Source: a virus
Length of the DNA stretch: 33,351 bases
Virus record (IMG/VR): IMGVR_UViG_3300039106_000453
Span: 1 to 33,351 of that record
Direction: 5' to 3' (one strand)
Of the stretch, positions 5,050-26,009 are shown piece by piece. The notes under the pieces are model-generated. The model did no database searches, had not been told where the DNA came from, and saw only the letters and a list, made by a program, of their open reading frames with translations. The translations under genes were made by a program, and so were the position numbers. Each line of letters opens with the position of its first letter. Position 1 is the first letter of the stretch.

Positions 5050-5574
5050 ATGAGCGTAAAAAATGTATTTGATTCTGTTAAGGAAGATTCAACAATTATT
5101 GATGTTTTTATGGAAAATAAAAAACGGTATATGATGATGCTTTCATTTGCACAAGAAGTATTGCGAGAGGCTTCGTCATTGTCTCCACAAGATAGAGAAA
5201 TTATTGCAGCATATACATCATATCTAAATGGATGTAGATATTGCTATGGATCCCATCGTCTTTTTGCAGAATCAATAAATGCTGAGATTGAGGTTTTAGA
5301 TGGCGGTATTCAATCAACTCCAAATAGATTAACTTCAATTTTTAATTTAGTAGAACAACTAACTAAGCATCCAGCAAGTATGACTAAGAAATTATATGAT
5401 GAATGTTATGAGGCTGGATTTACACAAGAACAAGTCAAAGATGCTGTTGCAGTTTGTTCTGCTTTTAATTTCTTTAATAGAATTGTTGAAGGTCATGGAG
5501 TTCAGGAAAATTCTGAATCTTGGGCACCTGCTGCAGAACAAATTAATAAAGTTGGTTATGATCAGAGATATTAA
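5050..5574 (+). CDS. AhpD-like / carboxymuconolactone-decarboxylase-family protein
   Basis: A 174-residue all-helical protein. The hallmark segment 'YTSYLNGCRYCYGSHRLFAE' holds Cys62, Cys65 and His69, the redox Cys-x2-Cys plus His of AhpD-type peroxidases. In known members the pair reduces peroxide with a lipoyl or thiol donor. A GAGGTAG ribosome binding site precedes the ATG. The gene lies directly after the primase and overlaps the halogenase by 17 bases, so the two are probably made together. It might remove peroxide leaking from the reduced-flavin halogenase or protect the cell during infection; both are inferences. A related peroxidase-like subfamily without peroxidase activity is also possible. 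Confidence 0.85.
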   Translation: MSVKNVFDSVKEDSTIIDVFMENKKRYMMMLSFAQEVLREASSLSPQDREIIAAYTSYLNGCRYCYGSHRLFAESINAEIEVLDGGIQSTPNRLTSIFNLVEQLTKHPASMTKKLYDECYEAGFTQEQVKDAVAVCSAFNFFNRIVEGHGVQENSESWAPAAEQINKVGYDQRY

Positions 5575-7021
5575 AAATGTTGTAGTTGTTGGCGGTGGAA
5601 CTGCTGGATGTTTAAGTGCTCTTCTATTAAACAAAAGGTATCCGAAGTTAAAAATAACAATGGTGCGAAGTAAACAAATAGGAGTTCTTGGGCCTGGTGA
5701 AGGGTTAACAACAAACATACATAAGGTTTTTAAAGATTTAAAAATTGATGTTGAAGATGTAATTAAGTATACAAATGCAACTATCAAAAATGGTGTTGTG
5801 TTTTCTGGATGGAACAAAGAAAACAAATCATGGTTTCATGGATTCAACAATATTTTTGATAGTAATATTTTTTACAATAATCACAACACTCTTAAACTTT
5901 GTAATATAGCAATGCAAGAGCATGGAAATTTAGATTCTATTAATTTAAATGCACAGATATCTTATAAAAATAAAATTCATTCAATTAATAGTAAAAAAGA
6001 ATACTCATTACATTTAGATGCAAAACTACTTGGAGATTTTTTAGAAAATGAAGTAGTTAAAAAAAATATAGAAATTATTGATGCTATTGTTGTTGACACC
6101 AAAACAAACAATAATGACGACATTGTGGAATTATCACTAGACAATGGAACAAGCATTAGTTTAGATTTTTTAATTGATGCATCTGGTTTTTCTAGATTAT
6201 TTTTAGATAATGTTTATAATGTTGAGTGGGTTGACACATCTAATTTTCTTCCAGCCACTTCAGCAATTGCCTGCAAACTTCCTTTAGATGGTAAAGAAGT
6301 TCCATATACACAAGCAATTGCAATGGATTATGGTTGGGCATGGAAAGTTGCACTACAAAATAGGTATGGTTGTGGATACGTTTATGATAATAAATATATT
6401 AATGAAGATGATGCAATAAAAGAAGCATATAAATTTTTTGGAAAAGATTTAGAAATTATAAAAACTTTTAACTTTACTCCAGGTTATGCAAAAAAAATAT
6501 TAATAAACAATTGTTTAGGTATAGGACTTTCAGCATCATTTTTTGAACCAATGGAGGCTACTGCAATAGCAGGAATGATTAATGCATTATATTTGTTTTT
6601 AGATAACTATTTCTATAAATATATTAATAATACTATTACTGATATAGAAATAGATCATTTTAATGATTTAAATGAAAGAATGGCACAGGCAATAACATCA
6701 TATTTGTATATGCATTATGTTACAAATAAAACTAATACCAATTTTTGGTCAGAATTTTTATTAAAACATCCAATGCCAGAGTATGAATATCATAATATAA
6801 AAAGATTTATTGAGGATATGGAAACAAACAAAAAAGATTTTTCTTACATAATGCAACCACCTTCCTGGCTACTGTATAGTTGGATATCTTTATATGCTGG
6901 AAATAGTTTTAAAATTTCTAAAGATTCATTTGACAAAAATGAATTGGAAGAGTATACTAAAATAGTAGAAAAAATCAATAATGCTGCAGAACAGTATGAT
7001 GATTTTAAAATAACAATATAA
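5558..7021 (+). CDS. Flavin-dependent tryptophan-halogenase-like protein
   Basis: A 487-residue FAD-dependent halogenase of the PrnA/RebH type. Such enzymes use FADH2, O2 and halide to make hypohalous acid, which a lysine delivers to an indole substrate. Visible features: FAD-binding GGGTAG at 12-17; GPGEGL at 45-50; Lys77 in 'ATIKNGVVFSGW' at the place of the catalytic lysine; Trp260-x-Trp262 in 'GWAWKVALQNRYGCGYVY'; and 'FFEPMEAT' with Glu333 at the place of the catalytic Glu. The usual Pro of W-x-W-x-I-P is Ala265. The start at ATG 5558 gives the flavin fold directly at the N-terminus; longer starts run through the AhpD gene. The substrate is unknown. The gene looks more A+T-rich than its replication neighbours, which suggests acquisition. 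Confidence 0.88.
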   Translation: MIRDIKNVVVVGGGTAGCLSALLLNKRYPKLKITMVRSKQIGVLGPGEGLTTNIHKVFKDLKIDVEDVIKYTNATIKNGVVFSGWNKENKSWFHGFNNIFDSNIFYNNHNTLKLCNIAMQEHGNLDSINLNAQISYKNKIHSINSKKEYSLHLDAKLLGDFLENEVVKKNIEIIDAIVVDTKTNNNDDIVELSLDNGTSISLDFLIDASGFSRLFLDNVYNVEWVDTSNFLPATSAIACKLPLDGKEVPYTQAIAMDYGWAWKVALQNRYGCGYVYDNKYINEDDAIKEAYKFFGKDLEIIKTFNFTPGYAKKILINNCLGIGLSASFFEPMEATAIAGMINALYLFLDNYFYKYINNTITDIEIDHFNDLNERMAQAITSYLYMHYVTNKTNTNFWSEFLLKHPMPEYEYHNIKRFIEDMETNKKDFSYIMQPPSWLLYSWISLYAGNSFKISKDSFDKNELEEYTKIVEKINNAAEQYDDFKITI

Positions 7022-22682: not shown

Positions 22683-22973
22683 ATGGCAAGAGTAAAGCAA
22701 GTTGAAGAGCCTACCCAAGTTGGATCTGGAGCAATTGCAAGCATTAATAATATTATTATGCGTATTATTGCAGTATTTGCAGCATCTGGTCTAAGTGTTA
22801 TTGGTGCAGGTGCCGTTGTAGGCATCAGCACTTTTCATGCAGTAGTTCTTGCTGGTACACTAGGAGTAGCCACAGTAGTTGAAAAACTGGCTCGTGGATT
22901 TCTGGATGACGGCAAACTTACCATTGAAGAAATCAATAATGCGTTTTCTGCAGTGGATAAAAAGGGCAAATAG
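22683..22973 (+). CDS. Putative holin
   Basis: A 96-residue protein with AAGGAGGAA just before the ATG. One or two hydrophobic segments cover about 25-66 ('IIAVFAASGLSVIGAGAVVG' and 'FHAVVLAGTLGVATVV'), then an amphipathic region 'LDDGKLTIEEINNAFSAV' resembling an EF-hand-like turn. Proteins of this look are common in actinophage lysis regions. It would permeabilise the membrane for the endolysin. The holin call is by resemblance and context. Confidence 0.6.
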   Translation: MARVKQVEEPTQVGSGAIASINNIIMRIIAVFAASGLSVIGAGAVVGISTFHAVVLAGTLGVATVVEKLARGFLDDGKLTIEEINNAFSAVDKKGK

Positions 22974-22993: not shown

Positions 22994-23023
22994 TTGACAC
23001 TCATACCCCATTGATGGTACAAT
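22994..23023 (+). promoter_or_regulatory. Promoter of the proteasome-like gene
   Basis: TTGACA at 22994-22999 and TACAAT at 23018-23023 are 18 bases apart, and TGG before the -10 makes it extended. It predicts a start near 23030, inside the inverted repeat at 23003-23049. Confidence 0.75.
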
Positions 23024-23049
23024 TGATTTACGTGCTATCAAAGGGGTAT
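23003..23049 (+). repeat. 13-bp inverted repeat enclosing the promoter -10 and covering the RBS
   Basis: ATACCCCATTGAT (23003-23015) and ATCAAAGGGGTAT (23037-23049) are reverse complements at 12 of 13 positions with 21 bases between. The left arm lies in the -35/-10 spacer; the right arm contains the AAGGGG ribosome binding site before GTG 23052. It could be an operator or an RNA hairpin in read-through mRNA. Confidence 0.7.
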
Positions 23050-23051
23050 TT

Positions 23052-23576
23052 GTGACTTGTATTGTTGCTGTTCGTAAAGAAGATAAAATTTATATGTCTG
23101 GTGAACGTGGTGTGTCTGATGATGATATTATTCTTCAGTCTTCCAGTCCAAAGGTTTGGCAAACTGGACCATATCTTTTTGGATATGCTGGTAGTATGGA
23201 TGGGGATAGAATCAGACACAACTTTAAACCTTCCGCACCAGTTGGTAATAATTTAGAAAAATTTATGTACACCAAATTTATAAAAGAATTAAGAGATTTT
23301 TATAATGAGTGGTGGGTTGATGTAACAAAAGATTCTGATTTTGGAATGATAATTTGTGTTAAAGGAAAAATATTTGAACATGAGGCTGGAGATATGTCTT
23401 TGACTCAATACAATCAAGACTATTTAGTTATGGGCTCAGGTGGTTCTTATGCATTAGGATACTTACACGCTACAGAAAATCAAAAAGATGCTCGCAAAAG
23501 ATCTATTAATGCAGTTCAATCTGCTATTAAATTTTCTACATCATGCCTTGGTCCAGTAGACACAGTTAGCATTTAA
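23052..23576 (+). CDS. Proteasome/HslV-like Ntn-hydrolase peptidase
   Basis: A 174-residue protein starting GTG-ACT, giving Met-Thr. After Met removal the catalytic Thr is residue 1. In that mature numbering Glu17 ('SGERG') replaces the usual Asp17, and Lys33 ('SSPKVWQ') is exactly at position 33. 'LVMGSGGSYALGYLHA' matches the HslV/proteasome beta loop with its conserved Ser near 129. The length is like HslV. It has its own promoter and an unusual inverted repeat. No ATPase partner is nearby. It could process phage or host proteins; this is inference. A self-assembling Anbu-like peptidase is an alternative. Confidence 0.72.
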   Translation: MTCIVAVRKEDKIYMSGERGVSDDDIILQSSSPKVWQTGPYLFGYAGSMDGDRIRHNFKPSAPVGNNLEKFMYTKFIKELRDFYNEWWVDVTKDSDFGMIICVKGKIFEHEAGDMSLTQYNQDYLVMGSGGSYALGYLHATENQKDARKRSINAVQSAIKFSTSCLGPVDTVSI

Positions 23577-23585
23577 GGATAAAAT

Positions 23586-23804: not shown

Positions 23805-23875
23805 GCCTCTTTAGCATAGTGGCAGTGCTTCCGCCTTGTAAGCGGATGGCGTAAGTTCGATTCTTACAAGAGGCT
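23805..23875 (+). tRNA. tRNA-Thr (anticodon TGT)
   Basis: The acceptor GCCTCTT (23805-23811) pairs with AAGAGGC (23868-23874). The D stem is GCA/TGC. The anticodon stem TCCGC/GCGGA encloses CTTGTAA with anticodon TGT (reads ACA). The T stem is GTAAG/CTTAC with loop TTCGATT. CCA is not encoded. In an A+T-rich phage ACA is a frequent codon, so the tRNA probably supports translation. Confidence 0.92.
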
Positions 23876-23890
23876 CAATATGTTTATTTA

Positions 23891-25186: not shown

Positions 25187-25380
25187 TGAAAATAAGTAGA
25201 AGTGCACAAAAAACTATATCGTGGCAATTTGTACATATAGGTTTTGTTTATGGAATGATTTATTTGTTTACTCGTGAATGGGAGTATGCTGGTTTGGGCG
25301 CTCTTGGCTATATAGCCTGGGAGTCTTCAGCATACTACATTCATGAAAGAGTATGGGAAAGGTTTGCACCTAAAAAATGA
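25186..25380 (+). CDS. DUF2061-family membrane protein
   Basis: A 64-residue protein starting at GTG that shares one base with the endolysin stop (TAGTG). It has the DUF2061 pattern: N-terminal basic 'SAQKTISWQF', two hydrophobic spans, and the C-terminal 'YYIHERVWERF' signature. Function is unknown in bacteria. Coupling to the endolysin suggests it helps lysis or alters the membrane. Confidence 0.8.
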   Translation: MKISRSAQKTISWQFVHIGFVYGMIYLFTREWEYAGLGALGYIAWESSAYYIHERVWERFAPKK

Positions 25381-26009
25381 TAGCAAAAATTATTTTAACA
25401 TTATTTCTAATTTCATTAACTCCAAGTGTTGCAACAGCGTCACAGCCTATTAAATATAGTTCCATAGATGTTGCTATAAAAGCGCTTAAAGTTGCCCCAG
25501 AATCTCGTACAGGATATGTGAGAACTAAGTTTAAGCATTGGGTTGGAGTTGGAAATGGATGTGATTCACGTAAGGCAGTAATTATTTCAGAAGCATCTGT
25601 TAAACCAAAGGTGGAGCCTGGATGTAAAATTATTGGCGGTGAATGGAACAGTATTTATGATAATGTTAAAGTAATTGATGCTGCAAAATTAGATGTAGAC
25701 CATATGGTACCACTAGCAGAAGCATGGGACTCAGGAGCATCTGCATGGGACGATAAAAGACGTGAGTTATATGCAAATGATCAAACCGATAAAATACATC
25801 TTATAGCCGTAACAGGTGCTTCAAATAGGTCAAAATCAGATAGAGATCCATCAGAATGGATGCCGTCAAATAAAGCATATCATTGTCAGTATATTGCAAA
25901 TTGGGTATCTATTAAAATTAGATGGTCTTTATCTGTAGATGAAAAAGAACTTCTAGCAATTAAATCTATTAAATGCCCTAAACTTAAAATAACAATACCA
26001 TCACTTTAG
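25377..26009 (+). CDS. Secreted HNH nuclease (DUF1524/GmrSD-like)
   Basis: A 210-residue protein with an ATGA overlap with the previous gene. It has an N-terminal signal peptide (about 1-21, 'IILTLFLISLTPSVATA'). The HNH core is 'LDVDHMVPLAEAWDSGASAW' with the catalytic His, followed by 'YANDQTDKIHLIAVTGASNR' and 'SDRDPSEW'. Conserved cysteines in the exported part could form disulfides. Secreted nucleases of this type occur in actinobacteria, where they act on external DNA. Here it could scavenge DNA or cut the DNA of competing phages at the surface. Confidence 0.85.
   Translation: MIAKIILTLFLISLTPSVATASQPIKYSSIDVAIKALKVAPESRTGYVRTKFKHWVGVGNGCDSRKAVIISEASVKPKVEPGCKIIGGEWNSIYDNVKVIDAAKLDVDHMVPLAEAWDSGASAWDDKRRELYANDQTDKIHLIAVTGASNRSKSDRDPSEWMPSNKAYHCQYIANWVSIKIRWSLSVDEKELLAIKSIKCPKLKITIPSL

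Follow-up and report, generated by a model that had tools for sequence, protein, structure and literature searches.

Results

Genes and features at the locus

The window, which is the whole stretch of DNA analysed here, is a viral contig of 33,351 bases with 34% G+C. Its DnaE-type polymerase is closest to those of Streptomyces phages, e.g. BillNye (55% identity), and the sole isolate with a match to its holin-like gene is Actinomycetia phage DSL-LC01, which came from a lake. This match covers only part of the gene, and no HslV-like peptidase is annotated in the viewed stretch of DSL-LC01. On the basis of the polymerase and the lake isolate, the host of the contig phage is likely to be an actinobacterium, probably of freshwater. 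Elsewhere in the window we noted a tryptophan halogenase-like gene among the replication genes (5396-7021; phrog_2928, E 2e-97), a tRNA-Thr (anticodon tgt; 23805-23876) lying between the peptidase region and the gene for the CHAP endolysin, and a GmrSD C-terminal (HNH-type) nuclease domain in the protein encoded at 25377-26009.

At the locus under study, a 577-aa gene is followed by a 60-aa membrane protein gene, a 96-aa holin-like gene, a gap of 20 nt, the hexamer TTGACA, a hairpin and a peptidase gene that starts with GTG. The three genes upstream of the hairpin overlap or almost touch, and therefore RNA of the holin-like gene will extend into the hairpin if nothing stops it at that point. 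The features are as follows:

22683-22973, + strand: holin-like small membrane protein gene, 96 aa (272 relatives; stop codon 20 nt before the -35)
22994-22999, + strand: -35 hexamer TTGACA (promoter scan; kept in relatives)
23003-23020, + strand: left arm of the hairpin, located in the promoter spacer and, at its end, in the first three bases of the -10 (fold, relatives)
23015-23023, + strand: extended -10 TGGTACAAT, with TACAAT at 23018-23023 (scan; relatives keep TGnTA..T)
23021-23031, + strand: hairpin loop (fold)
23030, + strand: predicted transcription start A23030, the 7th base after the -10 (from spacing)
23032-23049, + strand: right arm of the hairpin, which includes the Shine-Dalgarno (SD) sequence (fold, relatives)
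23040-23046, + strand: SD sequence AAAGGGG (SD accessibility tests)
23052-23576, + strand: HslV/proteasome-like (Ntn hydrolase) peptidase gene, GTG start, 174 aa (phrog_1040, 5ovu)

The label 'holin' comes from the preliminary description and from the character of the sequence, with no family model behind it; the PHROG match of the product is phrog_26427, which is annotated 'nuclease'. The peptidase was assigned by profile matches to phrog_1040 (E 4.4e-19, residues 1-174, i.e. the whole protein) and to the proteasome homologue of PDB entry 5ovu (E 1.5e-6). A Thr follows the initiator Met, and this MT start is invariant across the alignment. A second promoter-like sequence, TAGACA-N17-TAAAAT, lies at 23557-23585, across the 3' end of the peptidase gene and immediately ahead of the ATG of the small gene that follows; in near-complete relatives, a TTGACA-N17-TATACT/TATAAT counterpart is located about 565 bp downstream of the hairpin promoter.

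The promoter spacer pairs with the SD sequence of the peptidase gene

The promoter is of the sigma70 type, TTGACA-N18-TACAAT with a TG at 23015-23016 ahead of the -10, and it ranked first of 32 promoter-like matches when 7 kb were scanned. The hairpin takes its left arm from the -35/-10 spacer of this promoter. The preliminary description had reported two 13-bp arms with 12 matching pairs, and we found exactly this between ATACCCCATTGAT (23003-23015) and ATCAAAGGGGTAT (23037-23049); the figure was an understatement, since the pairing extends inward to reach 17 bp within 23003-23049. The stem consists of 7 bp (23003-23009/23043-23049), an A/A mismatch and 10 bp (23011-23020/23032-23041) that include G-U pairs, and it closes an 11-nt loop. 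Its fold of -23.6 kcal/mol (z = -5.4) was matched by none of 200 shuffles. Both the -10 and the start had been placed in the loop, which holds for the start predicted by spacing, A23030, and for the second half of the -10, while 23018-23020 belong to the inner stem. The ribosome binding site lies in the right arm as had been described, with the SD sequence at 23040-23046 inside 23032-23049.

Several other 57-nt stretches in the window fold equally well or better, and thus the hairpin is unusual by its position and not by stability alone. Among 212 promoter-like sites in the window it has the strongest spacer/leader duplex, at -26.1 kcal/mol against -15.2 kcal/mol for the next, and the peptidase SD was the most occluded of the 46 gene starts tested in the window. 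Further copies of the arms in the window did not exceed chance expectation, and a search of the window with the Rfam 15 covariance models returned the tRNA as the sole match and no known cis-regulatory RNA family.

The architecture is kept in relatives with very different sequences

The peptidase and the holin-like protein served as queries to gather relatives from viral contigs, and a promoter-plus-start pattern added further ones; this added set was selected for the promoter and not for the hairpin. An exact search of the viral contigs for the left arm plus -10 of the window gave no matches, because the relatives differ in sequence. After removal of duplicates, 149 distinct promoter-bearing leaders of orthologous genes remained. 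These were bimodal: 109 had a spacer/leader duplex of -17 kcal/mol or stronger, the cut-off by which we defined hairpin carriers, and about 38 were essentially without a duplex. The latter are distinct orthologous leaders that have the same promoter and no hairpin although a co-directional gene ends directly upstream, and therefore a mask would be dispensable in those phages.

The carriers split into many sequence families, and the architecture is kept despite very different sequences. The arms read ATACCCC/GGGGTAT in the family of the window, GACCCCTTTA/TAAAGGGGT in that of L004, GCCCTCTC/GAGAGGGC in that of L082, CTCATGCCTACC/GGTAGGCATGA in that of L206 and AAAGCCCCC/GGGGGGTTTT in that of L302. 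In all families the promoter spacer contains the left arm, the loop the predicted start and the right arm the SD, and the base of the stem lies -4 to +8 nt from the start codon. Two near-complete relatives have one such site per genome (-24.8 and -24.2 kcal/mol, against means of -6.5 and -6.9); the same design was found at none of their other promoters, and a hairpin-free relative had no such site.

Pairing with the spacer covers the SD closely. Tabulation of 95 unique sequences showed that 98% of the G residues located 5-16 nt ahead of the start codon are paired with the spacer, and in the families of L202 and L206 the stem covers the AUG as well. In carriers, the predicted unpaired fraction of the SD was 0.04 in the read-through RNA versus 0.52 in the RNA started locally, compared with 0.41 versus 0.58 in the hairpin-free relatives; the value in the window was 0.14. 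The hairpin, its overlap with the promoter and this difference in predicted SD accessibility, as well as the covariation described below, are computational observations.

The pairing is under selection at the RNA level

Since MAFFT misplaces the right arm when aligning across families, cross-family covariation was assessed by arm swapping and by position tables. When arms were swapped over 13 clusters, own partners paired at -27.0 kcal/mol and foreign ones at -16.9 kcal/mol, and none of 20,000 permutations reached the observed sum. Each position of the spacer occurs with several Watson-Crick and G-U pair types. Compensatory series were also seen among close relatives of the window: columns 11/55 read T-A in L031, C-A in L013 and C-G in L015, and columns 20/46 read G-C in L031, G-U in L011 and A-U in L059. 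Chance, or selection for other features only, could appeal to the strong hairpins elsewhere in the window and to the sparse covariation within the window clade alone, which amounts to two pairs; it is hardly credible in view of the swap test, the 109 distinct carriers and the compensatory series, and the covariation already refutes it.

The type of mismatch tolerated bears on whether the pairing acts in RNA or in DNA. When the outer stem was aligned with equal cost for all mismatches, we counted 78 G-U against 16 A-C, or 56 against 11 by distinct contexts. This excess of G-U has p = 1.6e-6 against an expected G-U share of about 0.55 from the base composition of the arms, with contexts that are not fully independent. 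Taken with the arm swaps, the sequence comparison indicates that the pairing is under selection and that this selection is at the RNA level.

The preliminary description had offered a repressor operator as an alternative, in which the inverted repeat flanking the -10 would bind a repressor, dimeric or tetrameric, that acts on the peptidase promoter. The repeat does overlap the promoter, and co-evolution of repressor and operator sequences is conceivable. However, this reading fits the data worse than RNA pairing, as the arm families (ATACCCC, GCCCTCTC, GACCCCTTTA, CTCATGCCTACC) have no half-site in common, and G-U is favoured over A-C on the mRNA strand, a bias for which a DNA operator has no reason. 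Moreover, the pairing includes 98% of the SD guanines, and the presence of the hairpin depends on the upstream gene and not on the regulated one (see below). We regard an operator as very unlikely.

The hairpin follows the upstream gene and can be handed to a new downstream gene

Where a holin-like gene lies directly upstream, 99 of 100 leaders had the hairpin, versus 4 of 41 where the upstream gene is another one. The peptidase gene tree implies about 15 changes of hairpin state, and in eight independent supported pairs the holin-like neighbour went in the same direction in 7.3 on average (median p 0.016), which suggests that the identity of the upstream neighbour matters for hairpin presence. 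Part of this link could be physical linkage, with the left arm about 20 nt behind the holin-like gene. We rejected the idea that any co-directional transcription from upstream is accompanied by the hairpin, as hairpin-free relatives also follow co-directional genes (for a CHAP-type endolysin and for a 118-aa membrane protein).

The proximity to the holin-like gene, 16-20 nt in nearly all carriers, would suit a hairpin that stabilises the holin-like operon RNA at its 3' end or serves in its processing, such as an exonuclease block or an RNase III site, with masking of the SD as a side effect. Such a role leaves the inclusion of the SD unexplained, since the SD is always in the right arm and the stem base is near the start codon in all families. 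It also does not fit loci that retain the hairpin without an intact holin-like gene directly upstream: in L214 an Hsp20-like gene stands in place of most of the holin-like gene and the hairpin persists, as it does behind an unrelated membrane protein gene in L131, L163 and L186. We therefore give a 3'-end function very little credence, marginally less than an operator.

In L048, L053, L054, L044 and L050 an extra gene is inserted between the hairpin and the peptidase gene. The promoter and left arm are kept in these loci (L048 and L055 are identical there), and the right arm of the inserted gene still pairs at -21 to -25 kcal/mol, with a changed sequence in L048, L050, L053 and L054. The displaced peptidase gene has an ordinary SD and no hairpin. 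The inserted gene, which encodes 236-238 aa (L048:3364-4074, L044:3365-4081), has thus taken the promoter and hairpin over from the peptidase; that of L048 gave no confident family match. A natural loss of one arm was found in L188, where the -10 and right arm are kept, and the -35 and left arm are replaced by an unrelated upstream gene.

Transcription termination as an alternative to masking

The main and most serious rival, one absent from the preliminary description, is that the hairpin works as an intrinsic terminator of the upstream operon, perhaps a partial one, into which the next promoter is embedded: RNA polymerase coming from upstream would stop at a short U run once the hairpin has formed, and local RNA, which lacks the left arm, would be continued. 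This would account for the association with the upstream gene, and 3-4 U often follow the right arm. Leaders with the hairpin have 3.9 U of 9 on average versus 2.7 in those without, and a d'Aubenton Carafa-type score was positive in 53 of the 109 leaders, so that termination is possible in about half of the relatives. In the window, however, the score is negative (-6.5), as it is in the leaders of L202, L206, L302, L113, L174 and L297, and a terminator scan with loops of 3-8 gave no terminator-like match at the hairpin site. The stems of L202 and L206 cross the AUG with no U run behind them, and hairpin-free leaders can share a U-rich linker, e.g. GAGGGGTTTTTGCATG in L126. Furthermore, the right arm of a terminator need not be the SD, yet 98% of the SD guanines are paired. 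Termination in place of masking hence appears unlikely to us, more plausible as it is than the operator or the 3'-end hairpin; termination and masking could also act together, both silencing read-through.

A probable read-through translation mask

We consider it fairly likely, judging from sequence comparison, that the element serves to mask read-through RNA from translation and that it is organised around the sigma70-type promoter behind the holin-like gene. Read-through RNA from the upstream fibre/membrane-protein/holin-like operon would carry both arms and form the 17-bp hairpin, which would hide the SD, and in some relatives the AUG too, leaving the first gene of the next unit untranslated. 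This masked first gene would usually be that for the HslV-like peptidase. Locally started RNA would begin in the loop without the left arm; with a leader of about 22 nt, in which the SD is open, it would be translated. Peptidase synthesis would in this way depend on the local promoter and be independent of transcription in the neighbouring operon. We infer the start site, the read-through, the reduced translation and any difference in timing. Masking of read-through RNA had been put forward in the preliminary description, and it gains support from the covariation of both arms in 109 leaders, the G-U excess, the constant placement of the predicted start within the loop, the pairing of the SD guanines and the transfer of the hairpin to the inserted gene.

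In phage T4, hairpins that sequester the ribosome binding site on transcripts initiated upstream are known for e, soc and I-TevI/II/III, and also for segB and for mobE of Aeh1 (reviews PMC3014915, PMC2988022). The comparison with e, soc and I-TevI had already been drawn, and as an analogy of mechanism it holds: the SD and/or AUG would lie in a helix on long transcripts, and the promoter is placed such that its transcripts, from the predicted start, would lack the 5' arm and be translatable. The type of promoter differs. T4 promoters of this kind are late and the masked RNAs early or middle, whereas here we found a sigma70-type TTGACA-N18-TACAAT with TG, that is, with a -35, a spacer and an extended -10. 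A further difference from T4 is that the -35/-10 spacer itself serves as the left arm, and that the fibre/holin-like operon would be the source of the masked RNA. The element would work like the T4 masks but lacks one defining feature of that set.

A similar logic operates in IS10/Tn10, where the inverted repeat at the end of the element sequesters the transposase start in external read-through RNA, and RNA from the element's own promoter lacks the 5' arm. The resemblance lies in the predicted sequestration of the start in read-through RNA and in the predicted absence of the 5' arm from locally started RNA. However, IS10/Tn10 guards a transposon against any neighbour, whereas the hairpin studied here sits in a fixed phage gene order and is linked to one upstream gene. 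As for the peptidase, the HslV-family peptidases (phrog_1040) of Salmonella, Aeromonas and Vibrio phages belong to the same protein family, with at most 32% identity between the window-type peptidase and the phrog_1040 isolates in the collection.

As a wider and more tentative proposal, about which we are rather doubtful, the element may act as an insulator that is widespread in phages: a promoter of the housekeeping type would drive a gene, and its spacer would at the same time serve as the antisense arm that pairs with the SD of this gene. A single short sequence would then start the next operon and keep read-through RNA of the fibre/holin-like operon silent; the peptidase would probably be switched off during transcription of the latter, in reverse of the T4 timing. 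A mask at this locus would extend the T4-style two-start mask of the ribosome binding site to unrelated uncultivated phages, probably of freshwater actinobacteria, on strong comparative evidence from more than 100 sequences and not from a single case. It would also suggest a hypothesis on the role of the peptidase, namely that a proteasome-like peptidase must stay off the transcripts of the fibre/lysis operon. The arm loss in L188, the insertion of the L048 type and the hairpin-free orthologues with the same promoter are natural experiments that make the mask directly testable, and the leaders are short enough for reporter use in laboratory bacteria.

A diverged peptidase family with a start codon close to the -10

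A second, diverged peptidase family was represented by 12 loci (L077, L078, L079, L083, L085, L090, L091, L095, L099, L100, L106 and L109), with about 32-36% identity and no visible SD. In all 12 the ATG lies exactly 6 nt past a TATACT/TACAAT -10, as expected of a leaderless start at the 7th base, and this is the same spacing as that of A23030. From this arrangement, the mRNAs of the diverged family are likely to be leaderless.
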